A stretch of DNA of 64,000 nucleotides from Bryoerythrophyllum caledonicum. Its lineage: Eukaryota > Streptophyta > Bryopsida > Pottiales > Pottiaceae. The position numbers and the translations under genes are program-made. The DNA lies in NCBI GenBank assembly GCA_963971425.1, contig OZ020522.1:1834168-1898167 (forward strand), written 5' to 3'. Of this stretch, positions 7,800 to 56,109 are shown piece after piece (within the stretch, counting starts at the first letter, position 1; the number at the start of each line of letters is the position of its first letter). Under the pieces are notes generated by a model. It was not told where the DNA came from, ran no database searches, and saw only the letters and a program-made list of their open reading frames with translations.

Positions 7800-8742
7800 C
7801 CCCTAAAGGCCCAAGAGTCCCTACTTGAGCAACTCTAAGAATTTGAGCAAGTTCCTACAGTGCTAATTTATTGCGTTTCCTTTTAACATTTTTACTGTAC
7901 ATGGACATTACAAAAAGCTTTGTGTGCATACAATTTTTTCTTAAATCTGACATTCAATGCAAAAGTTATAGGGTTTTGAAGTTTTAATGGGGAGAGCGAG
8001 CACTTCGGGCAACTCCAAAAACTTTTTCTAGAATACTCAGTCAAAAGTGAGAATTTCAATAATGGCAAGTAATATTATTTTCTTTCATATTGTCAAAAAT
8101 AAAATCTTGTCCTTAGTGAAAAATAGCACATTAACCCAAGTCAAACATTTTCATACCTTGTCACAAATTGTTGGGCAAGGTAAGAAAAAATGTTCATATT
8201 TTCCACATTAAATTGAGAGATCTTCATATTTTAATTTTTTAGATTTTTCTACTACAAGATGTGTTGTAACCCTTCTTATCAACCGTTTGGACTTTGATTC
8301 TAAAACATATTTAGTTCAAAAAAAAAAAACGCAAATTGGTAATTCTTGAACCTCCACTCCTTGCACAACCATATTGAATATGTTACACCCTTCTTCTACC
8401 GCTAAAAATTGGTGTATGAGGAACCAACTTCATGCTTAACAAGATGGCAAAGAATCTAGACATTGTGTAGTGCAAAAAATTCAAACCAAGTGAAGTCAAA
8501 GTTTGCTGATCCACTCAACGGAGGGAAGAAAATGAACCATTTTCTCTACTTCACACACTATAATCTTTCAATTTGTGCGGTAAAAGTTTATGAAATTTGG
8601 TGAGGACGTTACTTAGTGAGCTTCAATTTAGACCCTACGGTTAGTTGTAGAAATAAAGACTTTGTTTCCCTATGTACTCATTGCACTATAACAAGCGAAT
8701 TTGAAGTGTTATTGGTGTGAAAATGCCTTGGGCCTTTAGGAA
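7800..8742. mobile_element. Long TTAA-type MITE, near full-length copy A
   Basis: 943-bp non-coding element. The left end reads CCCCTAAAGGCCCAAG and the right end is its inverted equivalent (CTTGGGCCTTTAGG). It is flanked by TCAA at the left and TTAA at the right, consistent with a decayed TTAA target duplication. Internal sequence aligns along its length with the copy at 20592-21519. The TTAA target and CCC-type terminus are hallmarks of the piggyBac superfamily. Confidence 0.75.
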
Positions 8743-9655: not shown

Positions 9656-11436
9656 CATAAATTCTCTGGTCATATCAACTTTAACACTTTGTAGAAGTGA
9701 AATTAACAAAGGAGGGAGCAAAGCATGTCATAACACTTAACATATAACACTTAGAAGTGTAAAGTTTTGGAAGCGAAATCTGCTTAACATCTTATATGGA
9801 ATTTCAACATATAAAGAGGTAACATTTAAAGAGGGTGGATTGTATTCTTGACCCTGTTTTTTAGAGTGTACCAAATTGGACTTTTCTCTACATATGATGG
9901 TAGGTGAGGTTGGGAAGCAATAGGGCCTACAGTCGGGCCCCTTTAACACATAACACTCATAAAACTTGATCTCAATAATATGTAAAATTTACATTTTCAT
10001 CTATCATCCGAATTCATCCAACTTTTTCATCTCATATGCCAATTTTCTTCCAAAATAGTCAGAAACAACATTTTACCCAACCAATTTTGCTGCCCTGTAA
10101 TACGGTTTATTGCTATTTATTGCCCAATAATTTCTTTGGGTTTTCCAAGGGTGAAGGACATCATTAACTTCACAATTAAAGAGTTTCATCGATTTGTTTT
10201 GAAAATGATCACTTAAAAAAATACAAAACATGTCAGTGTACCTATTCTCTTGTTGCTAATCTGAAACCATATTGAGCTATAGTGGAAAAAAATCATAAAA
10301 TAAAATTGTAAGTACAGTAATGATATGCTCCACCATGACATGAGAATGTTTTTTTAATATTCAATGCATGTTATGTATGTTTCATCTCATGCAAGATCCT
10401 AATTCTGTTTATGGATGCTTGCAAATGCTTGCCAAGTGTTACAGAACAGTTTCGCCAAATGCATGGGGAAAAAAAAACATGCAAGAATTTTGTGTGGGTC
10501 CATGTTCAAGAATAAGAGTACTGTACAACCACTGTGAAACTTTCTCAGATTCGTAAATGACGTGGCGTATAAGGTGGGCCATAAATGCTCCTCGTCCCCA
10601 ACACGGAAGTGTTAAAGTATCAACAGGGAAGTGTTAAAGTGTTTGGCACCGTACACTTGAGACCACCCTCACATCTTTACGACTCATTCTTCACGCCCAC
10701 TTTTGCTCCCTTTCACATAACTAATTCAATTAAAAGAAGCCAGTGGAAATTGTGCATTGAAAGAAAGATTTTCTAGTAGTACTATTCACATGACAACTTT
10801 TTACATCACCCACTTCAATTGGAGACACTAATACCATATTTATGAAAATATCACATGCAAATGTGAAGTGTTCACCGATATTATATTAATTCTTTCATAC
10901 CTACTCTTGCTATTCATGAGTTCTCTTGACGTTCTTCCATTCTCAAGAGCCACTTTAGACAATGGCCTTTTGATTGAGCGGACGTGGAACAACTTCACTT
11001 GAAATTGGGCAACATGGCAATGTAAAAGTTAACTAAAATACAATAAAATATGACTACTAGCAAGCCATAAAGTGGAAGTTCAAAGAATAAGCTCCACAAG
11101 CCATGGACAATATCGATTTGCAAGGATCCAATCCATGTAATACTATTTTAATGTTTTCATTGAGATAAATAACATGTTTCAGAATAATGCAAATCAAACA
11201 TTTTTCAGACATTGTTGAGTAATATACCAAATAACCTTCAAATTTTCTACACAAAAATCATAGATTTTTATATTTCTAAAGTTTATACTTTTCCATTGTA
11301 AGATGTGATATAAAGATTTCTATATATTAGTCGGATTCTTACAAAAACTTCAAATTCTCAAAAAAATTAAAATTTGAATGGGCAATTTTTGAACCTTTTT
11401 TTTGTACTAGATTTTTCAAAATATGCTATATGTCGA
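9656..11436. other. Unassigned AT-rich intergenic sequence
   Basis: No gene seen. Short frames are uncoordinated. Around 11250-11430 the sequence weakly resembles the interior of the long TTAA MITE, so part of this stretch is probably an old copy. Confidence 0.35.
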
Positions 11437-11539
11437 GTAAAGAAAGATCGATAACCACAATAGATTGAGAGTCCTAACCAACATCAAATAAATGAAAAAC
11501 ATATACTAAAACAAATATACGTAGAACACCCTCAAGAAA

Positions 11540-12016
11540 TAACTAGTAAATCAATAGGGTAGTCAAGCGTCTCGCACTCCAGAAAGGGAGAATCAATGAG
11601 TGCAAGTAGTGTATGAGAATGCCGAGCCTTTACTAATGATAAACAATCACTTACAACCAAAAATAATCACTAAACACTCTCTAATTCACCTACAAAGCTT
11701 GACTTGACAAAGACGTCAAGTCAAGGATGTGTGTGGCGCTATACACACAGACACAACCACAAGTGGATGGAAATCATCCTCAGATGAATGTGGTGCGCCG
11801 CCGTACGTCCCTAAACCCGTAGAATAGTAACAAATTAGTCTACGCTAAAACACTACGATGCAGAGAAGCACTCAACGCCACGTTCCGTGATAGCTGTTGC
11901 GTAAAGAAAAATCAACTAAATTTGTTGTAATAACCACAACAAATCGAGAGTCTTAACCAACATCAAATAAATTAAAAACATATACTAAAACAAGTATATG
12001 TAATACATCCTCAAGT
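11540..12016 (-). repeat. 3' LTR of the gypsy element
   Basis: Positions 11540-11892 match 20445-21732 once the MITE in the latter is removed, so they are direct repeats flanking the coding region. The segment 11902-12015 also recurs as a direct repeat at 11437-11535, suggesting a partial second LTR in tandem. Clear TG/CA ends were not identifiable, so limits are approximate. Confidence 0.55.
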
Positions 12017-12327
12017 GCCCCCCTAGCAGATAAAGAGACCCTCTATCTAGCTAGGACCAAATAGACCAAACAACATAAACAAGACTAAACTCGACGGTGA
12101 TGTCGCTGCAACAACTGTACGCATCCAGTCAAAGCTTTTGCCCGTCGCCGAATCAATAAGCATATGAAGAAGTATTAAAGAAAGGGTAGGCCGGGTGCAA
12201 TGTAAGCTCCATTTTTTATCGCCTTAAGCAACTTTGTTGTCAATCTTCACGTTGCCTATTCTTGAATCAAAACGAGGAACTCCAATTCCATGGCAACGTA
12301 CCATACAATGACAAGCCCACGAGGAAT

Positions 12328-12651
12328 TCAAGTCGTTTCATTGGGTGAAACGTGGCTTGAAAACCTCTCATAATGAGGGCAAGTCCAATCTCCGGACGGT
12401 AGAGTAGAAAAAGGCGGGGTCAAACAAGCCATAGGCCAACCACGCTCGCAATGGTTACAAAGCAACATGGTAGCTGTGCCCTTCTTCTTCGCACACACAA
12501 AACACGGAAGATCGTCTGGCGCAACGGCCAACTCCGGATGAATGGAGCCATCAATGGATAAATGGCATGGAGCACAATTCTTAGTGTCTCGAAACTCTCG
12601 GCCATCGTTGCCTTTTAACAACAAGATGCTGTTGGGCAACACATCCTTCAC
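12328..12651 (-). pseudogene. PHD-finger tail of the gypsy polyprotein
   Basis: Minus-strand frame of 107 codons downstream of integrase. Residues about 48-95 form a C4HC3-like PHD finger: CFVC, then CNHC, then GWPMACLTPP, then SGDWTCPHY. The expected His of GWHxxC is Pro/Met and the last zinc Cys is Tyr, so at least two ligands are lost. PHD fingers read histone H3 tails. At the C-terminus of an integrase the module could steer integration to particular chromatin, as chromodomains do in chromoviruses; that role is inference. Confidence 0.65.
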
Positions 12652-12866
12652 GCAAAGAATAGTGCGTCGTACCTTGACGTCCGGCGTTGTAGGCGCCTCA
12701 CATTGCAGATAAACGTAATCTCCTCTTGAGAAATGTTGCAGCTGAGGTCGGTAGGCACCGCTACAAATACAAGTGTATTGTAACGTGTCACGTTGCTAAG
12801 CAATGGATAAATTCTCTTTGGCCATGAGCTAGCCCACTTGAAGAACTCCGCTTGATCTTGTTTATA

Positions 12867-13600
12867 CTAGGCCCACACCTCAGGATCGTCCAAATTTTCA
12901 ACAAAAGCGAACTTTTCCTGAACAAAACTCGGTGAAATTGGCTCCTTCCTGTACAACAACTGATACAGACTAAAAGTAGCTAGTAAAGCCAACCGGCTAA
13001 ACCGATATCCCATAGCTATCCATGGTATCATCAGATCCCAATCGTGATGGCCACCATGAAGTGATCCATAATTCCGTAGGCTCCGTTTCACGGTCTGAAC
13101 CACATGCTCTGCCAAACCGTCCGCTTTCAGATGATCCCGAGAAGTAATACGGTCGTCAATCAAAGTCTTGGTACACAAAGCTTTGAAAGCCCCTAGGAAT
13201 TTATGCCCTTGACATGTGAAAACCTCAGCTGGAGCTCCAAAACGTGCCAAAACTCGGTCGAGGAATGTCATGGCCGCCAACATTGAAAAGTTCTGCGAAA
13301 GAGCCACGAGCTCAATCCACTTGCTAAAATGCTCCACCACTACCAAGACATAGTTGGCTTTGCGTGGAGTCACGACAAGTAGAACAACAAAGTCCAAAGA
13401 ACATTGGTAGCCCATCTCCCTAATGGGCAAAGGCTGCAACCGCGGAGACAAGGTGTTAAAACTGGATCTGATCTGATCACATACTTCACACTCAGAAATA
13501 TAGGTGGCGACGTGCTTATATATGCCGGTACATCAATAGTGGCTACGCAACATCGAATGAGTCCATCACACACCGAAATGTCTTAGCTCTTCGTGTACTT
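12867..13600 (-). pseudogene. gypsy integrase (inactive remnant)
   Basis: The frame 13451-12867 is an rve-type core. CSLDF holds the first catalytic Asp. The second block reads EVFTCQGHKFLG, where the family has a D before QG, so that catalytic Asp is Cys here. ADGLAEHVVQTVKRSLR carries the Glu region. The preceding segment near 13520-13460 contains SECEVCDQI, the end of the HHCC zinc domain, in another frame. Frameshift plus loss of a DDE residue means no activity. Confidence 0.8.
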
Positions 13601-13989
13601 GTCGTAGCAACGAAGCCCTTTGATATGGCCTAGGAACTATGCGCGTAGTCCCATCTGGCAACACCAAAAATAGAAGCCCGTTCTCCCAACGGAACCTTGC
13701 TATTCGGTGTCCAACTCTATCACGCTCCATAGCAGAAAGAACTCGAGGAAGTGTCCCATGGTGTAGCTTGTGGAAGACTAGACCGTCTTCTCACACATTG
13801 CTAACAACTTCGGCCCTATTCGGTTCCTCATCTGTTGCAAAATCAGGCAACGTCGATGCGGAGCCAAATATCAAGATGAAGTAAGCTGCCGCATGCCACC
13901 CCGGGATTGACTCCTTGTCACAGTCCCCATGCCACCTAGCACCAGTCAGATCCTCCTTTGAAGGACTTGGATTGCGAGATAGACCAATC

Positions 13990-15460
13990 GCATCCAAATT
14001 TGTGATGCCGGCCTAATGTAGAACCTCAAAGTCATACTCTTGAAGCAAAAAAGCCCACCTGGCGAGCTTGCTAGCAAGCTTGTTAGACTCCATGAGCCAC
14101 TTCAAAGGCTAATGGTCGCTCAACAACGTAAAATGTTGCCCATATAAATAGTGCCTAAAATGGGCTGTGGCCCAAACCGCGGCCAAAGTCTTTTCGTCAT
14201 ATGATGAATAGTTGGACTCCGCGTTGTTGTTGCTCCTAGAAACAAACGCTACAAGATACTCCCGTCCCTCATCATCCTTCTGAGTCAACACTGCCCTCAA
14301 TCCCACAACACTCCAATCCGTGTGCAACTGAAAGGGTCGTGTAGCATCCGGACGCCGTAGCACTGGCGCTGAACCGAGCTTCAACTTCAAAGTAGCAAAC
14401 GCATGCTGCTGCTCCCGTCCCCAACTCCATAGCTGATCCTTTCCCATGAGAATAGCTAATGATCTAGCAATCAAGCTAAAGTACTTGACAAAGCAGATAT
14501 AGTAATTCGCCAAGCCAATAAAAGCTCAAAGCCGTGACACGTCAATTGGCGCAAGAATCTTCTACAAGGCATCAACCTTGGCTTGCTGTACGCCAAGTTC
14601 TCCAAGAACAATTATATGTCCCAAATATGGCAACTAATTGTGGAAGAACTTGCACTTGCCATGGAGCAAGCGCAATCCCTACTACGATAATCTCTCAAAC
14701 ATTGCCTGAAAATGCCTCATATGCTCATGTGGGCTGCTACTAAAAATCATAACATCATCAATGTAGCATCGAGCGAACGATAAATTGGTCAACACCCGGT
14801 CCATGACCCTTTGAAACTTAAGGGGTGCGTTCTTGAAGCCAAATGAGAGGAACTTCCAGTTGTAGAGTTGATCTCTCCCATCCTGATCAGTTTTTCAGAA
14901 TGCAGTCTTCACTCAGTCTTCCACCATCAATGAAAACTAGTGATAACTAGACCAAAAATCTAGAGTACTAAATACTCTAGCGTGGCCCACTGCATCAAAT
15001 AACTACTCTGGTGTGGGCATGAAATACCGGTGTGACTTGGTCTTGCAATTGACCAGCATATATTCCCCTCACATCCGCTTCTCCGTCCAGCTGCCAAAGA
15101 TATCCTTGTTCGATGGCATAACCGTCGTACAAGCGTACTTGTCGTTGGAGAGCTCAATCAAGCTGGCGGCCAACAGCTCCTGACAACGAGTCTGAACCCC
15201 AACTTTTTTTCAAAAACTAAGCTTGTACGGTCGTGGGAAGATCGGGTTGTTGTTCTCCAACTGAATGTGAATGTGCTTGCCTCTATACCCCTCCAAATCA
15301 TGAAGACTAAAGGCAAAATAGTTACGATACGAACGTATAAATGCTTGTACTCTCCGTGCCTCTGCAGCGGTAAGATGTGGTCCCAAATGCAAAGGCCAAT
15401 TATCAAACTCCGTGGTCTCCTTTCCACCGTAGGAGACTCACCACGTACCGGCACGGCTAG
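13990..15460 (-). pseudogene. gypsy reverse transcriptase and RNase H (broken)
   Basis: Segments in several frames add up to an RT-RNaseH. The pre-RT linker (15392-15210) contains HLGPHLTAAEARRVQAFIRS. The first RT motif, ARVFSTLDF, is near 14970-14945. The catalytic YIDD lies at 14765-14754. RNase H at 14513-14109 contains PFQLHTDWS and LTQKDDEGREYLVAF, then SRSNN, and ends at a stop inside what should be DHQPLKWL. Stops also occur after WTEKRM and elsewhere. The DNMT-coding region ends about 300 bp upstream, in polyprotein order. Confidence 0.8.
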
Positions 15461-15754
15461 TGATTGCTACTTAGTAGCAGAGAAGGCATTCATGCTCTCG
15501 GACTCCTCACTCACGAAATCCATAAAGAATCCCGTGTTGTGATGATAAGACTTGGAAAAGATATCCTGGACATCCTCTCAACCAAAGTCCTTGGCCAAGG
15601 CTACAAAGATAGGCTGAGCACAAAGCTCTTTAGCAACATGTCCCTTCAAACAAAAAAACAACTCCGCTTCCTTGATCTCTATGAGATAGGGCACCGCTGC
15701 ACTCTGACCATCAGAGTCTGCTCACAATACGCGTGAATGGTCACGCGGATGGCG

Positions 15755-16812
15755 CTAAACGGCTAAACAAAGGTCACAAATCCAAACAAGAATGTTGAGG
15801 TCAATGGCTTGACCCAACAAATAACGACGCTCGCCCCGAGAGAGATCCGGTGCGGCCGTGGTGCCGGTCAAAAAGCCCTTTGCCCACTCCCTCTCATTGG
15901 CACAAGGCTCCTCGTAAGTTTGAGAAGTAGAATCCCAAACCATACCCGGACCGCGTGTCCTAAAGGCAAAAGACCCCGAGTAGCATATGAACGTGGAAAA
16001 AGCCCCGAGAGTGGAACCAACCTGGTTCACCACGGCCAATGGTGGCTCATCGTCCTTGGTAACCTCCGTGGAAACATGGTGGTTGTCTAAGATGTCATTG
16101 ACCTCACGACACATGGGCCGTTGCACTTGAGCAAGTGTAGAGGTGAGCGTTGCTGATAATGCCATGTTGGTCCAAATTCAACGTGGCCAATGGGCGTAAG
16201 AGCCCAACGCCGCGACATTAACCAACGTAGGGGGACCAAGAAGGTGATTGATGTATGCCCCATCCTCATGCACCTTTCTCTGTGTATCTCCTATTGGGGA
16301 TACATTCTAAAAAATGTACCCCAATGGTGTCGATTTGGTGGATAATCCGCCACTAGATGAGCCTAAGTAAATCCGCAAAGAGCCCCGACCGTGGATCATC
16401 CAAGTGGTGTCTATTGCCCGCTCGTGAATGGCCTTGGCAAAGCCATCCACAAATCACTAAGTCCACCTGACCTAACCGTCGCAAATCATCCTCACTGATC
16501 AATGTCACATCACATGGCAACTTGCCAAAACACCCCCGAATGGTTGAAGTTGATAATTGGTCCGGATACAACGCCAGAAGACGTTGAATGTGATGGTGAG
16601 CAGCACGGTTGGCTGCAAAGCCACTATCCACGTGGATGTACCGGCGTACCTTGAGGTGAGCCTCCAATATAACCGCAAGCCCCGTACCGATACCGCCAAA
16701 TAGCTCCACGAGGATAATTTCCTCATCCGATGGCCGCCACTGATTTGTACAAGTCAAACACGGAGTGGAAGAGTCCAGTGAGAGATGTAGAGCATCCAAA
16801 GCATCTTCAATC
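15755..16812 (-). pseudogene. C5 cytosine DNA methyltransferase domain within the gypsy polyprotein
   Basis: Motif I, VELFGGIGTGL, lies at about 16709-16677 and is the SAM-binding signature of m5C methyltransferases. Motif IV, VICGWLCQGHSRAG, has its catalytic Cys codon at 16439-16437; the usual PCQ is LCQ. The motif VI position (about 16305) reads FLECIP in place of FENVP. GSYAHWPR near 16200 resembles motif VIII. ERRYLLGQAIDLN near 15800 resembles motif X. One frameshift lies near 16350 and stops lie near 16262 and 16181. The domain follows the protease-like region in the same frame with only one TAG (about 16815) between them, so it is part of the retrotransposon and not a neighbouring host gene. 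Confidence 0.85.
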
Positions 16813-16815
16813 TCC

Positions 16816-17330
16816 TAACTGCGGCAAGTGAGCTCCAACTGAGTTCCCCATGGAGAAAGTGGATCCTTGCAATGACGTGCATGGATTTCCACTGATCTGT
16901 GCTCACGTGGCTCCGCTACCTTCGACATAAAAGCATTTGTCTTTTCCAAAAGTGTAGAACCACATGGAAAATTGGATGCCAAGGCACTGCATTCAAATAT
17001 AGCATTCGCTGTGGAAGTCACTGCACTAGCTACGAAGACAACCGGAATGAGCTTCTTTCTGCCATCACCAGTAGACCATCCAAGCCTAATCCAGGCAACT
17101 TCCATCCAATTATCCACCACAAAACCGAGTGGATACAACATCCGCTCACTCCTCAAGATGTCGTAGTTGGTGGCACAAGCCACAACGCATTGGAGACATA
17201 CGTAGGAGATCAATGGACAAGATCCCATGCCAAACATCAACTGCAATGGATGTCAGGTGTATCTCAAGGCCTTCTCCGTGCCCCCACTGATGTAATAATT
17301 GTAAATGGAGAAGGATCAAGGTTCAAATGA
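16816..17330 (-). pseudogene. Protease-like segment upstream of the methyltransferase
   Basis: Minus-strand frame 17246-16816 contains ACATNYDILRSERMLYPLGF, resembling the C-terminal half of retropepsins where NYDxLLG precedes a hydrophobic strand, and then DNWMEVAWIRLGW. It sits between gag and the methyltransferase, the normal place for protease. The DTG active site was not located, so the assignment rests on position and this weak similarity. It is in the same frame as the methyltransferase motif I block. Confidence 0.45.
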
Positions 17331-18248
17331 CCTTGACCCAAATCTTGAGCTAGCTGGCTGAGCTGCAAAGACTTCCAACATGATATGGAGGGGGATAGCT
17401 TGGATGGGGTTGCCGTTCGTACGGCCAACCACCATGACTCCATCATGGTTCACCAAGCGTACCACCCCTGGACGCATACTATGTTGCTCCTGTGCCAATC
17501 GGGCCGCAATGTTAGATAAATAAGCCACTCCAGAGATCAAGGACTGACCCCCGGAGGATTGCCCCATAGGTGTGGAAGTGACATTGGCCTCAAACGCGGA
17601 AATAGCGTCCGCCGCCAACTTTGTCCGCAATGCCACCAAATCCTCCTCGGTGGGTGGAGCCGTCACTGCCTGCAACACCTCTAACAATGGCATGGGCACC
17701 TTGCCTTCCAGCATACTACCCGCCAAGTAGAATACACTCAATGGTTGAAAATCCGGTGTCAGGAAGTACACACCGACAAATATTGGTAACTGCAATACTT
17801 TATACGCCAAGGTGTATGCGGCATCTCCATAAGTGGATGAAATTAGTGGGACGGGAATCAGAGTGGGAGCGGCATGAGAAGTCCCCGCATCTACGATGCT
17901 AAACAAAAGAGGTAGCCTGGACTGACCAATGTGGTCCGGCAAAACCGTGTGGCGTGGACGAGCACTACTACTTGTCACAGAGGAAGAAAGTGCCACCGCC
18001 ACTGCAATAGTTTGAGCACGAGTAGCTACTACTGCCACCATCTCATCTGAAGCGCCATACAAGTAGCAATGTAGGCTTGAAGGTGAGCCCTGACCCTCGA
18101 TCGGAGGCCGTCTATTTGCACTTGCCCTAAAGAAGCCATCGTGCTCATTTGCTTCTAAAGCTCCGCCAGTTCGGCCTGAAGTATCTTCACCACATCCGAA
18201 CCAACTGCTGAAGACCTGTGGCACATCTCCAGTTGAAGAAAAAAACAA
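17316..18248 (-). CDS. Unrecognised 310-codon region of the gypsy polyprotein
   Basis: An uninterrupted minus-strand frame between the CCHC knuckle and the protease-like segment, rich in Ala, Ser, Pro and Val. It overlaps the gag frame at its start, consistent with one polyprotein plus a frameshift. I recognise no domain. It is the longest intact frame of the element, which is notable amid otherwise heavy decay. Confidence 0.4.
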   Translation of the reverse strand: MFFSSTGDVPQVFSSWFGCGEDTSGRTGGALEANEHDGFFRASANRRPPIEGQGSPSSLHCYLYGASDEMVAVVATRAQTIAVAVALSSSVTSSSARPRHTVLPDHIGQSRLPLLFSIVDAGTSHAAPTLIPVPLISSTYGDAAYTLAYKVLQLPIFVGVYFLTPDFQPLSVFYLAGSMLEGKVPMPLLEVLQAVTAPPTEEDLVALRTKLAADAISAFEANVTSTPMGQSSGGQSLISGVAYLSNIAARLAQEQHSMRPGVVRLVNHDGVMVVGRTNGNPIQAIPLHIMLEVFAAQPASSRFGSRSFEP

Positions 18249-19266
18249 TTCTCATCACTGTGGCCAGACTTGCCACAGTAAGAGCATGTCACAACCTTCT
18301 TCCCCTTGCCCCATGCCTTCTCAGTAGGCTTGGCCGCCTCACTCTTAGACTTAGCCTTCACCGTGCTTGCTCTTTTCTTCTTAGAGCAGTTGGGGTCCAC
18401 CTTGGTATACCCCGCCCCTCCACAAGCCCACAACGCACAACCTTTTTAGGTTGTACCTCTGCCAAACTATTAGTAGTTGTAGCAAGCTTCTTGGGCTTGA
18501 GAGCCTCCAATAGTGACGTGACGAAATCTGTGGCCTCGCTCATGCCAAGCGCTCTATCAAGCGTTTCCACCTCATCGAACGCTTGCACCAAAGTAGCCTT
18601 GCCGTGATACAAAAAGAAGATACGGGCTAATCAACTCCATCATCCATTTATTCAACTTAGAGATGAAGATGATCACCAGCTGGCGCTCCGTAAACACATT
18701 ACTAGCCTCCGCTGACAACTACGCCAACCGGATATACATAGTGCAAGGGGACCCTACTTCTCCTGGCGGAAATCTTGGATGCGCATCATCTGATCACGCC
18801 TAAATCCCTTGTATTCCACTTCTAGATGCGCTACAAATTGCGCTAGAGGTTCAAAGCCTGGAAGATTGTCAACTGTCCACAATACTAAACGTGTGACTAT
18901 GGCCAAACAAGACATGGCCCCCATGCCAGCCTGTTCGCCTACAATCGCAACATTTTTGCCCCTGGAGTCCTCACCGAGGAAACTCTCTTCCACCTTGGGC
19001 TCCTTAGTGAAAATTTGGAGTTGGACAACCGCACTCTCCTTAAGGGCAATCACCAACTCCACACGTTGGCGCCTATACTCCTCAATGGGGTGCAACTCTG
19101 CCTAGTTCTGCGTGGTCCACCTCCCGCATGTTTGAAGAGCCTTCAACTCCAAATGTTGGGACAACAGCTCGAACGTATACCAGTCATTAAACGACGGCGT
19201 CCACTAGCACTTTTCCTTCATCCACGTCTAGAATCATGGGTCAATTGGACTGAGAGATGTTCCTAG
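18155..19266 (-). pseudogene. gypsy gag with CCHC zinc knuckle (broken)
   Basis: The frame 19095-18754 ends in MRIQDFRQEK. The adjacent frame continues with SPCTMYIRLA, then a stop, then SNVFTERQLVIIFISKLN, typical of Ty3/gypsy capsid. The frame 18612-18358 carries QAFDEVETLDRAL. The 18433-18155 frame has a perfect CX2CX4HX4C knuckle, CSYCGKSGHSDENC, near 18290-18249, followed by a segment with repeated hydrophobic residues. Frameshifts and stops separate the parts. Confidence 0.7.
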
Positions 19267-19487
19267 CCCGTCTCGAGAACCTGTCTCGCACGACATGATA
19301 GATATCTTCCTCCATGTTGTCAAACGTGCCTACGCCCTAGATCAATATCCAAAGCCGTAGACTTGCAAAACCACCAATTTGTGTGGGTCACCGGTCATCA
19401 CCTCCGGCTAGCACAAGTCCAACCACAACCCCCCACATAAAAAGGTCTTGCCGGCCATGAACCCGACATTAGTGCTATGGTATTCTA

Positions 19488-20444
19488 TCACAATCTGGGA
19501 CAACAAGAACATGGGGCCGCCGAAAAATACCGGCAACAAGCCCGCAACACGGGTGAGGTACTGCACAAGAATCTAGAAATAAAAACGGGATCCTCCCTTC
19601 CAATATCATAAAAGCGGTAATTGAAAATGACCAAGGCCACTCGCACACGCCTGCAATGGATGGTCACTAGTTGCAAAACCTCAAACAACTCAAGGAAAAC
19701 ATCCAAAGGTGTCCTTCCTCAAGTCTAAAACTTAGGAGGTAGCAAGCTAATGCGGTCGCCGTGTTTACAAACACAAGTCCTTCTAATGAAAATTATACAT
19801 TGGGACAAACGCGCTCAACACCAATTAAATACCAAAATTGGATTAATGGTGAAATGACCTAAATATAGGCGTAAATTTCACTCAAAACCGAGTTAAATTG
19901 CCTTAGTTGCATACCTCCAAAGTTTAGACACTTATCTTTTTTTTAACAACCTACAAAAATGTGGTTTTGGAAAAAAAATTTCTACTAAATTTTTTCTGCC
20001 CCTCATTGAAACCCCAATGAAGAACTCAAATCCGAAGTTGGAATAAAAAAAATATATATTTTTGGAGATATTAACTCACTGTAAAGTGAATTTTGTCCAA
20101 ATTACAGTTTCATTCCTAGTGGATGAAAACTGCCCATAGCGGATGAATTTGTATGTAAAATGGATGAAAATGGATGAAAATTGAAAATGGATCATATTTC
20201 GCTAAGGATGATAATTGCGTTGCCGATGAAAAATCGCAGAATCAGGTCTAGTAGCTCTTCTTCTTCCAATTCTTGCGCCACTCGCATCTTGCTCAAAAAT
20301 TGTCCGATTTGGAAGCCGTTTGTTGCATTGGCTCCATCTTGAGGCGCTCTACAATATGAATCTAAGCATCTAAAATTTTTATAACTCACCCAAGCTCAAA
20401 TTCTAGAACTAAAGAGAGGAATGTGAGAGGGTCTTTGTCGAGTG
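19488..20444. other. 5' untranslated/leader region of the gypsy element
   Basis: Lies between the gag remnant and the 5' LTR. A 65-codon minus-strand frame (20389-20192) contains DGANATNGFQIGQFLSKMR and an acidic stretch, possibly the start of gag. No primer-binding site could be identified with confidence. Confidence 0.35.
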
Positions 20445-21732
20445 AGTAACTAATGAATTACAAGAGTAGTCAAGCCTCTTGCACTCCACAAAGGGAGAAT
20501 CAACAAGTGCAAGTAGTATTAGAGAATGTGAAGCCTTTACTAATGATAAACAATCACTTATAAGCAAAGGTAATCACTAAACACTCTTTAACCCCTAAAG
20601 GACCAGAGTCTCCTTCGAGGGGGATTTCTGATTTTGGGCACGTTCCTAAAATTTGAAAAAAATCCTTTTTCTTTGAAATTTTTATTCTAGATTGCCTCTG
20701 ATAAGAGCTTCGTAGACGTATTTTTATTTTATTTTTTGGATTTGTGATTTGAAAGTTAGTACCATTTAAAGCCAAAAGTGGGGACACCGGGCACCTCCAA
20801 ATTTTTTGACAAAAGTTTCTATTGACATTGAGATTTTTCACACATATAAAGAATATTTTTTTTTTTTGGAAATTTTCAAAAAAAAATCTTGTCTATGATG
20901 TAAAAAGGCATTTTATTCCAAGTGAAACATTTTCACACATTTTCGGGCAACGGGGGAAAAAAAATTCCTCTTTTCTACATAAAACCTAGAGATCTTCATA
21001 TTTTTCACTTTTTATTTTTTCAACAACAATATGTGGTGAAAACCTTCTTATTGACCGTTTGGATTATCATTCAAATACATACGTAGTTCACAAAAAAATA
21101 AAACGTGAAATGGCAATTTTTGAACCTCCACTCCTTGCACACTTGTTTTGAATATGCTACACTCTTTTTTTACCTCTAGAAATTGGTGTGTTGGGAAATA
21201 ACATCATGCTTAAGACAATGGTAAAAGATGTAGACCTTGTACAATGCAAAAATTTGATACAAAGTGAAGTCAAAGTCTGCTGATCTACTCAACGCGGGGA
21301 AGAAAATGAATCATTGTTTTGACTTGAAACACTAAAGTCTCTCAATCCGTGCGGTGGATTGCAACCAAATTTTTTCTGGCATGTTTAAATAGAAGTCTAT
21401 TTTAAGATCTTACGGTTGAAATTCTAAAATTCACTTTAAAGTATGATTTTTATGTCTCTTTTTGGCAGTGGCAGTTTTGGACTGGTTTTAGAGCGAAAGT
21501 GGTTGTGGTCCTTTAGTGGTTAACTCACTCACAAAGCTTGACTGACAAAGTCGTCAAGTCAAGGATGTGTGCGGCGCTATACGCACACATACTACCCTAA
21601 GAGGATGAAAATCATCCATGGATGAATGCGGTGCGCCGCCATACGTCCTAAAATCTGTAGATTAGTAACAAACCAATCTATGCTAAAACACTACGATGCG
21701 GAGAGGCCCTCGACGCCACGTCCCGTGATATA
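20445..21732 (-). repeat. 5' LTR of the gypsy element, split by a MITE
   Basis: 20445-20587 and 21524-21732 together match the 3' LTR block 11540-11892 (for example the shared TACTAATGATAAACAATCAC and GGTGCGCCGCC). The 928-bp MITE plus one TTAA copy interrupts it. The high-coordinate end is truncated against another MITE-derived sequence. Confidence 0.6.
20592..21519. mobile_element. Long TTAA-type MITE, copy B, nested in the LTR
   Basis: 928 bp with ends CCCCTAAAGGACCA and TGGTCCTTTAGTGG, flanked by TTAA at 20588-20591 and 21520-21523. The other LTR gives the empty site: AACACTCTCTAATTCACC at 11674-11691 against AACACTCT[TTAA-element-TTAA]CTCAC here. This directly shows a 4-bp TTAA duplication, the piggyBac mark. 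No transposase is encoded. Confidence 0.85.
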
Positions 21733-51360: not shown

Positions 51361-52059
51361 TAATGATAAGAGTGGAAGTAGAGTTTGGATCATTTTTGGG
51401 TGCAAGTCTTGCCCAATGTATTGCTTGTTGTGTTTCTTCTATATTGTGGGGGTGTGCAATACCATTTCCAATCCATTTATGGTCAAAGGCATTTCCTAGT
51501 GAGCCAAATTTTTTGTCTCTTTTGAAAGGTGAGTAGAATTTATTAAGTTGGGTGGGGCATGTGACAGAGATGAGAAGTACGAGTGTTGGATGCTGAAAGA
51601 TGAGATTAGTGAGTCTAGAATGGGTGCAAGTTTGAGAGGGTCATTTTTTGGGATGCTATATTTATATCTCTGGAATAGCCAGACTATTTCATTTTCAAAT
51701 AATTGGGTTGTTGGCTCTATGTTTGTAGGGGTTTGTAGTTTATTTTGGTATTGGTTCCATAGCCATTGGAGTCTAGTAACGGGAATAGTAATTAGGCGTC
51801 TTCCGTTTTTTTCGTATATATATAAGCATGGTGTCATTGATTTTGATTGTATCTTTTGTTATGTAAATGTCTTTTTCTGGGTTGCATTTGGTTGTGTGTA
51901 TGTTGAGAAAGGGAATGATTATTGGTGGGGTAACTGATCTTGGGTCACAAAGTTGTTCTTGAGGATGGTGTGCTTAAATGATTTTAGAGTAGAGTTTACT
52001 TTGTGTGTTTTGATAATATTGTGTTAATTTTACAGAGTTGTGTATAGAAGTGTTTTGGT

Positions 52060-52200
52060 TATGCCATGGAAATAAGTTTTGTTAAGATAACCATTTGTTG
52101 TAGGTACTATTATTGTGTTGCCATTGGCATAAGTATTTGGTGTCATTCTTTGTGATTTTATTTGAGTCGATATGTTTTCTATGTTTATGGTCAAGGATGA
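52060..52200 (-). pseudogene. Chromodomain-like segment in the LINE
   Basis: Near the end of the frame 52675-52082: ILDHKHRK (residues 160-167), 13 residues, then YLCQWQHNNSTYNKWLS, a TAA stop, and QNL in the same frame. This matches the chromodomain outline ILDHRxRR, YLVKWxG, NTWExxENL. Chromodomains bind methylated histone H3. It follows a Pro-rich linker after the RT. Short, so assignment is tentative. Confidence 0.5.
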
Positions 52201-52860
52201 GGTTTATGGGAGATATGTATGGATTTTTGAGGATGTGGATTGGGGAAGGAGGGGGGATGGATGTGGTGGGTTGGGGGTGAGTTGGTGGGGGGTTATTTTT
52301 GGGTTGGAAGTTGTTGTTGGTGGTAGTATATGTGTCTTTGGGTATGTAGGGGTTCTGATGTGTGGGGCATGGCGAGGTGCATGTGTTGAGGCATAGAGGG
52401 TAGCAGAATAATTGTTGGGCAATGTTAAGGGCGCTTTTTATTAATTTGGATGGTGTAGTATGAAATGTTTTAAAGACTTTGTGGTTTATGATGTGTGTTC
52501 CATTTGGTAGTGTAATTTGTTTTAAGTCGGTAATACTCACTGAGAAAAGTTTTTGTAAGAGTTTTTGGGAGAGGTGTTGGTTGATTCTTGTGTTATTTTG
52601 AGTTTCTTGTAGCCATATTTGTTCCAAAGGTGAGGGTTCTAATAGAAAATCCTTGAATGTACTTTTTAGGTACACTTTTGTTTCATTTTTTAGTAGGAAA
52701 AATGTTTGGGTGATTGGTGATCTAATGCAATCGGCTTTGTTTATTCAAGGGATATTTTTGCGCCACCGTATTTGGCAAGGATGGAGTGGGTGAGCCCCTT
52801 GTAAATCTTGCCAAGTTTGCCTTTGTCATTTAATGCATTTTGAAGTTGTTCACCTATACA

Positions 52861-54200
52861 TCAAAGGTAAGCATTTTTAAGAGAAAAAGCTTCTAGTCCA
52901 AATAAATTTTGTGGAAGTTGGGTTATGATATTGGACATGCAACTAGAGAGGCCACAAATGGATTTTTGTATGGCTATAATTTTTTGTCTAGTTTTTTTAT
53001 AATAGGCACGGAGCATGGAACTGCGTAGAAATTGTATGCAACTCCAGGTTTGAGTACTGTGTCTACCATAATTTGTTATTTTTTGTTTCATAGTGGCCAG
53101 GCATGTTATTAGTTCTTTGCATTGTTTAGTAAGTTTTGTTGTGGTGGTGTGAATTTGTATCTTCCATTTTAGTACAGGGACAAGATTTGTGCCAAGATAT
53201 ACGTATGATTCATTTTGATGGAGTATAGGGATAGGTTGGTTACGGTAGTTTTTGTTGGCAGTTTGCATAAGTGCTTTGAATGTGGTGGGGTTCATTTTGG
53301 ATTTGTTTGGGCAACCCGTGGTGGCACATTTTTTGGTGCCAACATCCATACCGGACCATTTACAAAATTTGTCAATTTTGTTGAGTTGAACTTGTACTGA
53401 CTTGAGTTTTCCGGTTACAGCGGCAAGGTCGTCGGCGTAAGCGGCTGAGTTTATGGTGACTTGTGATGTTCCAAAGGTGTAGCCATTATTTCCTCTTTGC
53501 ATCCATCTTAGTAGTGGTTCTAGGAAAATGAATAGGTATGGGTTTAAGGTGTCACCTTGTATAGTTCCGCGTTGTATAGAAATGGAACGTGTTGTTCCAA
53601 AGTTTTCTCCAATGTATGAGGTGGACGAGTGAAAGTAGATGTTTCCAACTAGTGTGACTGTATCGGTGGGATATCCAAGGTCAGACATAATTGCTTGTAA
53701 TCTTGCGTGGTCAATAGAGCCAAATGCATATTTGAAATCAATATATAAAATATATATGTCTTGGTTTGTAATTCGTGCGTCTTCGAGTGCAGCTATTATG
53801 GTTTGGAGTTGCCGAGCGGTACTTCTTTCTGCACAAAAGCCTTCTTGGTTGTCGTGTAAGATTTGGTGTTTTTCTCCATATGATGATAGTATGGATGTGA
53901 ATGTGCTTGTGAATGTGCTTGTGAATAGTTTATAGATAGTATGGTGCTTGTGAATAATTTATAGATAGTATGGTATGCTATTATGGTTTGGAAGCATTGA
54001 GGGGTTTAGGGATATAGTAATATTGTAGAACTAGTTTTCCATGAGGCGGGAATTTGTTTTTGTTTGTAGCAACGAGAGAAAAATAAATAGAGAAGTTTAT
54101 GGAATCTTGGAGGCATTGATTTTAGTATGGAGTTTGGGATGCGGTCTTGTCCTGGGGCTTTGTTGTTTCCTAAATTTTTGAGGCATGTATCGTATGTGGT
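52861..54200 (-). pseudogene. LINE reverse transcriptase
   Basis: Minus-strand blocks in order: NKxPGxD-type start (about 54160), EGFCAERSTARQLQTII (about 53850-53800), LYIDFKYAFGSIDH with catalytic Asp (about 53750-53710), QRGTIQGDTLNPYLFIF, and AAYADDLAA with YADD at 53439-53428. The thumb continues to 52861. A 12-bp triplication and a duplicated 36-bp unit at 53895-53970 add repeats (TSTFTSTF) and a stop upstream of motif A. Confidence 0.88.
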
Positions 54201-54971
54201 TTGGTTAAAATAGGTGTGTAGTGGGGTTTGTGGCTCACCTTGTTTATGTATAGTGAAACCGTCTAGGTCATGCCATGGATATTGTCTTACAGCACATGTA
54301 CATGTAGGTTGGTGGTCTGGTAGATATTTGCATGTGGGTACAGCGGATCTGTTATTTTTGCTTTGTTGGTTATATATCTCATTTGCGATGTCTTCAGGGC
54401 TAGTTGAGATAGTGTTATGTTGGTTGGTGATACAGTCTAGTGGTGGAGATCTAGTGTTTTAAAAGACTTTTTTGTTAATTTTTTTGGGACTAGTTTCGTA
54501 TAATAGTTTGTATTTAGAGATGGCTTTTTTGATATTTTCTTTGGTATATTTGGTAGTTATCTTTCTGGCTTGTTTGTTGGCCTCTTTTGCAATCATTGCA
54601 ATATTGTATAACCATTCGTCTGGTGATATGTGGGGGGTGGTGGAGGTGGGATTTGAGTATTTTGTAGTGTTTGTACTTTTTGGCAAATAGGGTGAGCAAA
54701 CCATTGTGGATTATTTTTAACGGTTCTAATTGTTTTCCAGATGGTATGATAGGTATTTAAATGTTGTTTTCACTTTTTAGAGAGTTTTTTTGGTAGGTAT
54801 CCTCCCTGTTTGGATGTTCTATTTGATAGTTGAGGTGTAGGTGGGGCTTTGCATGTTTTCTCTAGTATGCCAGATATATTGTTAATTAGTATATCTAGGT
54901 TATTATACGCTTCAATCCAGTGGTTTTGGGAGAGTTGATCATTTCTTTTAGATGGTTGATGAGGAAGTCAA

Positions 54972-55970
54972 TCAATATAGAGTTTTTCTCAAAAACATTG
55001 TATTAAAGTTTTGTACATTGGTTTTTGGGATGGGGTTGAGTATTCGAACATTTTCATCTATTGGAATTGTAGGTGTTCTGCTGACAAGTGTGTTGTGTGG
55101 AATGTTTAGTTGGATTGGTAAGTGGTCTGAGTTTAGAGTGATTCTTGTTTTTGTTGTACAGGTGTATCTAGCGTAGTTGGGATTTAGTATGTAGAAACCG
55201 TCTATCAAACTTAAATCTTTATAGTCATATCCACCTTGTCTAGAATATTGTGTGTATGTAGGGATATATTTAAAGTTTAAGTTATCGGTGAAGTTGCGCC
55301 ATTGTTGGTCAACGGCTTGTGGCAGAGAGAAACTATCTCCATGTTGGCTCCCAATTAGTGCGACATATCTATTGAAGTCTCCACATAATATAAATGAGTG
55401 ATTTTGGTTATTGTTGGTTTCAGTGGTAATAGTATTTTTGATGTCTGTGATAAACCTAATGTCCTCTAAATGGGATGGCATGTACATGCAAAATAGTATC
55501 CAAGGTTGTAGAGGTTGGTTGTTAATTTTTAAGATTTGTAAGCATGGGAAGATGTGCATTGGTGTAAGGATTTTGGCAATGTTGCTAGGAAAAGCATATG
55601 ATTTGTGTATCAGTGTAATAAAGCCACCTCGGCCTGGTGTATATCGGCGGCGTTGTTGAATACAGCGTGTAAATGCATGTGTGTTATTAAAGATAAGTTT
55701 GTAGTTTGGGAATATTCATTGTATGTATTTAGTAGACTTTGTGGCTGTGGTTTTTGTTTCTTGGATGGCTATTATGGCTAGGGGGTTGTTTTTGTATGTG
55801 GCAAGGTTCTGGATACATGGGAGGCCAATGTCGAGGGATTGGGCATTCCATGTCAGAATACATGTGTTGTTGTTCAGTGGGTTTGTGTTCAGATTTAGAA
55901 GAGGGATGTATGGGGGTGGTGGGGGCGGATGTGTGTATTCTGGTATTGATTCGAAGCATCTCAGTATTTC
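54972..55970 (-). pseudogene. LINE AP-type endonuclease
   Basis: Endonuclease/exonuclease/phosphatase fold. TWNAQSLD and IIAIQETK lie near 55850-55750 in one frame. CGDFN (55385-55371), LSLIDGFYI and NSDHLPIQ (about 55130) are in the frame 55559-54972. These are the metal-binding and catalytic blocks of AP-type endonucleases that nick target DNA. A frameshift or stop separates the two halves. Confidence 0.82.
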
Positions 55971-56109
55971 TTGATTTAATTTGTAGGGGAGAAATGGAAA
56001 GTGTTGTTGTATTAGGTTATGTGTTGGAGGCAGGTTTTGGCTATGGATGAAGTCGTATAATTTTTAATGTATTGAGTCTCTATTGTGTATAATGTCTTGG
56101 TTTTTGTAG

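Follow-up and report, generated by a model that had tools for sequence, protein, structure and literature searches.

A dead Ty3/gypsy retrotransposon copy with a DNMT3-type DNA methyltransferase, and its relatives with a stop codon in a leaky context

Why would a retrotransposon encode an enzyme for DNA methylation, which is mainly viewed as a weapon of the host against transposons? The question is raised by a locus on contig OZ020522.1, within the 64,000-nucleotide stretch analysed here (the window). Its minus strand holds what is, by its sequence, an old, dead copy of a Ty3/gypsy family that carries a C5 DNA methyltransferase (DNMT) of the DNMT3 type and has young copies elsewhere in the same genome. 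The order of parts is Gag, protease, DNMT, reverse transcriptase (RT), RNase H, integrase and PHD finger, and separate open frames of the window match Pfam DNA_methylase, RNase H, rve integrase and PHD finger. This domain set, together with DNMT motifs I and IV, bears out the original prediction of a Ty3/gypsy element with its own DNMT and adds the strand, which had not been given. The parts, in two open reading frames (ORF1 and ORF2), are as follows (L007, L024 and L025 are related copies):

11431..21730 (outer ends approximate), minus strand: whole decayed element (blastn with the features of copy L025/L024)
20453..21728, minus strand: 5' repeat B, interrupted by inserted sequence at about 20592-21521 (blastn against L025/L024 features)
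18245..18292, minus strand: Gag zinc knuckle, VTCSYCGKSGHSDENC (three-frame translation)
17075..17400 (approximate), minus strand: aspartic protease region (collinear with the L007 protease, LDSGAQP)
15752..16769 (ends approximate), minus strand: C5 DNA methyltransferase domain of the DNMT3 type, interrupted by stops and a change of frame (Pfam, translation, L007 alignment)
15461..15469, minus strand: end of ORF1, TAG then CAATCA, type I readthrough context (conserved in the genome family)
14600..15400 (ends approximate), minus strand: reverse transcriptase, decayed (translation; RVT_1 in L007 ORF2)
14109..14525, minus strand: RNase H (Pfam RT_RNaseH_2, E 2.1e-33)
12867..13532, minus strand: DDE integrase (Pfam rve, E 5.9e-7, 30.1 bits, just below the curated cut-off of 32.6; 51.7 bits in L007)
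12373..12504, minus strand: PHD finger, end of ORF2 (Pfam PHD, E 4e-7)
11930..12015, minus strand: repeat A, inner copy (blastn against L025/L024 features)
11559..11890, minus strand: repeat B, 3' copy (blastn against L025/L024 features)
11431..11536, minus strand: repeat A, outer copy, the 3' end of the element (blastn against L025/L024 features)

Motif I (VELFGGIGTGL) and motif IV (CGWLCQGHSRAG) of the enzyme lie in an open frame at 16814-16353, which matches Pfam DNA_methylase with an E value of 3.5e-6. The predicted motif IV is thus present, but the window copy reads LCQ instead of PCQ. As had been predicted, the upstream frame (17252-16815) shares the phase of the motif frame and is closed by one TAG (16817-16815). 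The remainder of the enzyme is found in another frame, down to about 15752, where translation gives *NV, HWPR*IWTN, ANERE..GF and LLGQAID, which we take to be motif VI, motif VIII and, for the last two, motifs IX/X. With these motifs present in the second frame, a complete enzyme was once encoded. A query made from the broken DNMT, with X at the stops, retrieved 38 proteins; the best two show 72 and 75% identity and cover 100 and 90% of the query, respectively. A role as a signal was considered for the TAG that separates protease from DNMT and was rejected: because ORF1 runs open at this place in all ten related genome copies described below, which were picked for long frames, both the TAG and the frame change in the window copy are attributed to decay.

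The window's own genome (G000; 437 Mb in 894 contigs) returned at least 119 matches to a DNMT query. Among the 119 listed, 12 have an open frame of 1353 residues, nine of them without a stop in the match. Ten copies of this family (family 1) were fetched, chosen for long open frames rather than at random, and in every one Gag, protease and DNMT share one frame, ORF1 being open and ending in TAGCAATCACCGGCC. The PCQ motif is found in ten of the ten copies, ENV and the protease motif in nine each and the CCHC pattern in eight; ORF2 is intact in three, in the same frame as ORF1. Identity between the two B repeats of a copy, 5' and 3', is 97.0-99.7% in nine of the ten copies, those for which the pair is listed, and about 84% in the window copy. 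This is a large retrotransposon family with young copies in the host genome.

A second family was retrieved by a Pfam search of the same genome (123 rows), which gave 20 loci, namely 19 DNMT loci (L041-L059) and one HhaI-like gene. The DNMTs of the 19 loci are 47.8-54.8% identical to that of L007 in the longest stretch, and two copies analyzed in full encode an ORF1 of 1371 and an ORF2 of 1041 residues with the same domains as family 1. The HhaI-like gene (L040; G000:C14:16016358-16017317, minus strand) is a single-frame C5 methyltransferase of the bacterial HhaI type (PDB HhaI, E 2.6e-41) on a 22-Mb contig, and may represent gene transfer or contamination.

Relatives also occur outside the host genome. 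A contig scan with the DNMT yielded four bacterial loci (Streptomyces) and a fifth, L007, a 9,285-bp sequence filed under a cyanobacterial metagenome-assembled genome (MAG) labelled AVDCRST, which we take to denote desert soil crust. Its two ends share 127 identical bases, the kind of overlap that a circular assembly produces. L007 is open in both ORFs and collinear with the window copy, aligning with positions 18855 to 11538 without interruption on either side of the DNMT (7,284 columns, 82.8% identity). Pfam recovers DNA_methylase and a weak aspartic-protease match in its ORF1 and RT, RNase H, integrase and PHD in its ORF2. The predicted place of the DNMT between protease and RT stands, being the same in all ten fetched copies and in L007. 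The MAGs to which L007 and a second element sequence, P0003, are assigned are bacterial (a cyanobacterium for L007 and 'Candidatus Obscuribacterales' for P0003), and P0003 is annotated there as a bacterial DNA cytosine methyltransferase; both sequences were probably mis-binned.

A protease query retrieved 15 proteins, 13 of which have DNA_methylase in the same frame; the other two (P0044 and P0049) end before the DNMT. Protease, DNMT and Gag trees were built from L007 and 12 of these 15, with P0044, P0049 and P0051 dropped as incomplete. The protease and DNMT trees concur on the major groupings, several nodes being weak; P0041 takes another position in the Gag tree, a discordance that suggests recombination.

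By both fold and profile the enzyme is of the DNMT3 type, with the tRNA enzyme DNMT2 scoring far lower, and it has the DNMT3 motif order I-IV-VI-VIII-IX-X. Motifs I, IV (PCQ), VI (ENV), VIII, IX and X were present in all nine metagenome ORF1 proteins with a complete DNMT (P0040-P0043, P0045-P0048 and P0050; 1330-1376, 1433 or 1252 residues long) as well as in P0053. A further enzyme tree comprised relatives of the element DNMT and one HhaI-like outgroup. A bacterial or phage source was considered and rejected: phage and Streptomyces matches were mostly partial and 26-61% identical, and the profile was far closer to DNMT3. Six proteins (P0026, P0070, P0073, P0076, P0082 and P0105) form a more distant DNMT group, 34-40% identical and with EPFGGLCAGL as motif I, which is possibly another carrier lineage. 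In P0097 (281 residues) the DNMT is fused directly to integrase, and this sequence looks like an internally deleted element.

The DNMT is under purifying selection, with ratios of nonsynonymous to synonymous substitution (dN/dS) of 0.06-0.11. The comparison of L007 with the window copy gave 0.28 for the DNMT, a value that also contains decay and was not taken as proof; for RT, dN/dS is void in the three of the ten copies that are out of frame (L030, L034 and L038), and its mean between copies was left aside. Decay itself was measured in 20 older copies from the lower end of the 119 matches, taking as baseline the columns that are identical among seven sequences with an open DNMT frame. Pooled, these copies show C-to-T changes at 10.5% of CG, 13.3% of CHG and 4.6% of CHH sites, compared with 2.6, 2.1 and 1.8% for C to A or G in the same contexts and 2.2% for T to C. 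In the window copy C-to-T changes affect 14.6, 23.9 and 7.0% of 96 CG, 46 CHG and 243 CHH sites, and over the whole window element compared with L007 the figures are 21.3, 20.5 and 12.1%, against 8.7, 8.0 and 6.3% in the reverse direction. Plants methylate CG and CHG sites. The decay fits methylation at CG and CHG, a pattern that does not tell the methylating agents apart, and its presence in old copies suggests that they do not escape it. The original prediction had added that such an element could hide from or manipulate host silencing; this decay argues against escape in its simple form.

The end of ORF1 bears on how the enzyme would be made. In both families the DNMT frame ends in UAG followed by CAAUCA or CAACCA, with RT downstream in the same frame. 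CARYYA after UAG is the leaky-stop signal of tobacco mosaic virus, as described in PMC4132726, and the elements share with it both the UAG-CARYYA sequence of type I readthrough and an open in-phase frame downstream; here it is known from sequence and belongs to a retrotransposon. Eight further family-1 loci all read TAGCAATCA. Family-2 ORF1 ends in different letters, TAGCAACCA in 10 of the 19 loci and TAGCAACCT in one, with another early stop in five and no call in three. A pattern fixed on the ORF1/ORF2 junction occurs at 121 places in the genome and its reversed control at none; when the stop codon is left free there are 92 places, 91 with TAG and one with TTG, both patterns having fixed flanks and counting little-changed copies only. 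A separate start of ORF2 is argued against by the 116 (family 1) and 81 (family 2) in-frame codons that precede its first Met. Gag-protease-DNMT would therefore be the main product and RT-integrase a rarer extension, and the DNMT, lying upstream of the UAG with RT in phase after it, should be made with Gag and in excess over RT. Folding of the 80 nucleotides after the stop against 100 mononucleotide shuffles gave mixed results (a family-2 copy 3 standard deviations more stable, L007 1.9, L025 none), and no shared RNA structure 3' of the stop is claimed from these three sequences.

Plant Ty3/gypsy elements have the order RT-RNase H-integrase, TG...CA ends, a short target duplication and two full long terminal repeats (LTRs). 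The elements described here share the first three of these traits but are set apart by the PHD finger at the end of Pol, the DNMT and split direct repeats in place of the LTRs. RT, RNase H and DDE integrase (rve) follow one another in one frame in ORF2 of L007 and of family 2, with pieces in the window, and TG...CA ends accompany a short target duplication, the family-2 ends having been sought within a few bases of the repeat edges. Family 1 has repeat B (361 bp) at its 5' end and A (106 bp)-B-A at its 3' end, hence B-coding-A-B-A overall, so that two complete identical LTRs are not present; its outer ends are TGTCACGG...ACGACA, the outer A repeat of L026 is partial, and 4-bp target duplications flank eight of the ten copies (none in L020 and L038). 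In family 2 the repeats are about 372 bp (B) and 233 bp (A), and both full copies have 4-bp duplications (CCTC and TAGT). Where printed, the inner A-B junction reads CGACA-GC-TGTCA in both families and may correspond to joined ends. This is the split arrangement of DIRS-type elements, A-coding-B-A-B, as given in PMC5890265. Pfam lists rve and no phage-type integrase, that is, no tyrosine recombinase, at E <= 0.01 in ORF1 and ORF2 of L007 and family 2. The window copy has the family-1 layout plus an insertion in its 5' B; this insertion of about 930 bp (20592-21521) is in part 76% identical to 8071-8581 and represents another mobile repeat family.

The closest described relative and known prototype is KnitGypsy-Dnmt3 of the green alga Klebsormidium nitens (de Mendoza et al., 2018; PMC5890265). 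The kinship with a charophyte element that the original prediction proposed is supported at the level of features: gypsy domains, an intronless, unrearranged Dnmt3-type enzyme under purifying selection (Ka/Ks < 0.2 in KnitGypsy-Dnmt3) and A-coding-B-A-B repeats are common to both. The place of the DNMT appears to differ: the text of PMC5890265 describes it as part of the Pol ORF, and in the elements analysed here it forms the last part of the Gag-protease frame and is separated from RT by a UAG with a readthrough context. The main text of that paper does not use the words protease, PHD or Gag, the parts covered give no target duplication for KnitGypsy-Dnmt3, and the comparison is one of descriptions rather than sequences. 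The Symbiodinium elements SymbioDIRS-Dnmt3 and SymbioLINE-Dnmt (PMC5890265) likewise encode a DNMT but belong to different retrotransposon classes; SymbioDIRS-Dnmt3 shares the split repeats and the Dnmt3-type enzyme and has a tyrosine recombinase, in contrast to the DDE integrase and 4-bp duplications found here.

The architecture, its conservation, purifying selection, the leaky-stop context, the split direct repeats and the 4-bp duplications are all read from the sequences; what they would mean for the element can be set out as a mechanism. ORF1, Gag-protease-DNMT, ends at a UAG in tobamovirus-type leaky context, and occasional readthrough would append RT-RNase H-integrase-PHD in the same frame. 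As every Gag precursor would then bear a DNMT, the enzyme is likely packaged in the particle at Gag-like amounts. Whether it then acts on the double-stranded DNA of the element itself, methylating it before integration while reverse transcription proceeds or shortly afterwards, is close to an even call and put forward tentatively. New copies would in that case arrive in the genome already marked, with the mark retained by host CG/CHG maintenance, and such pre-marking might limit host damage or shield the incoming DNA from being sensed as foreign. Taken jointly, a dead copy of a DNMT3-carrying Ty3/gypsy element, with a leaky stop after ORF1 and a packaged, self-methylating DNMT, is probably the best explanation of the locus. 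We are more doubtful of the broadest form, in which a de novo DNMT is a stoichiometric part of the particle, cDNA is methylated and insertions are born marked, which together with split repeats and a DDE integrase would make a distinct strategy of replication plus self-marking, kept by two or more families of one genome that have diverged deeply.

Some of the evidence weighs against a self-methylating element. The copies compared were picked for open DNMT frames and all dN/dS comparisons share L007, so that the values are not independent and lean low. ORF2 is broken in seven of the ten copies, with ENV missing in one, the protease motif in one and CCHC in two; the CG and CHG decay can be host-made alone; and the KnitGypsy-Dnmt3 domain gave no methylation in yeast, a result termed inconclusive in PMC5890265.

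Alternatively, the main targets of the enzyme might lie in trans, in the host genome or in older copies, with copy-number control or the silencing of rival elements as the outcome, rather than in the element's own cDNA. The high dose expected of a DNMT upstream of a leaky stop, the number of genome copies (at least 119 matches) and the CG and CHG decay in the 20 pooled copies would all suit such a role, but elements are normally selected for what promotes their own spread in cis, and we consider trans action unlikely. Distinctly less probable is that the domain is retained to methylate RNA, or as a component of Gag with a structural or nucleic-acid-binding function. Its fusion to Gag-protease and the inactivity of the related K. 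nitens domain in yeast (PMC5890265) are in keeping with this, yet the complete motif set in the nine metagenome proteins and P0053 and the resemblance to the DNA enzyme DNMT3, rather than to DNMT2, argue for a role on DNA. The idea that the DNMT entered a single copy later, or that the motif arose by chance, is favoured only by the condition of the window copy itself, in which the segment is delimited by a TAG and a change of frame. The original prediction had named copies without the DNMT, or separate boundaries around it, as signs of such an event; instead, the ten fetched copies, picked for long open frames around the DNMT, all carry it, the alignment with L007 is collinear across protease, DNMT and RT, 13 of 15 protease relatives have it, dN/dS is low and its position is shared by two families, which already refutes this explanation, and we give it practically no credence.

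Elsewhere in the window, frames for a LINE-like RT (RVT_1, 6.3e-18) and endonuclease (1.2e-7) lie on the minus strand at 52861-55715, and a strong GC skew of 0.44 is seen around them, at 52001-56000. Rfam gave no match on the window at gathering scores.

In the literature covered, which included few subscription papers, we found no precedent for a DNMT that shares the Gag-protease frame and is followed, in two families, by a conserved leaky-stop context, for a PHD finger beside an element DNMT, or for a DDE integrase with 4-bp duplications on split repeats; the name KnitGypsy occurs there in one paper only, PMC5890265. That paper is cited by PMC12344493, which in the text covered speaks of LTR Copia and DIRS elements, and by PMC6338049. 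A brown-alga DNA transposon with an N4-cytosine or N6-adenine methyltransferase (PMC12477816) is a different case, and the covered parts of PMC9246332, PMC9861306, PMC10538959 and PMC9033089 hold nothing on element DNMTs. The 2019 opinion paper PMC6338049 states that DNA-methylase-encoding transposons are absent from land plants such as tracheophytes; if the host is a land plant, that statement would need to change. The combination of DIRS-like repeats, a DDE integrase and clear target duplications also bears on how such elements replicate. With a family under selection to keep its own DNMT, placed where Gag-level output is expected, and with test material that includes numerous naturally open copies, a recoding signal that is conserved and repeats with defined ends, the question of why a transposon methylates DNA becomes directly testable.
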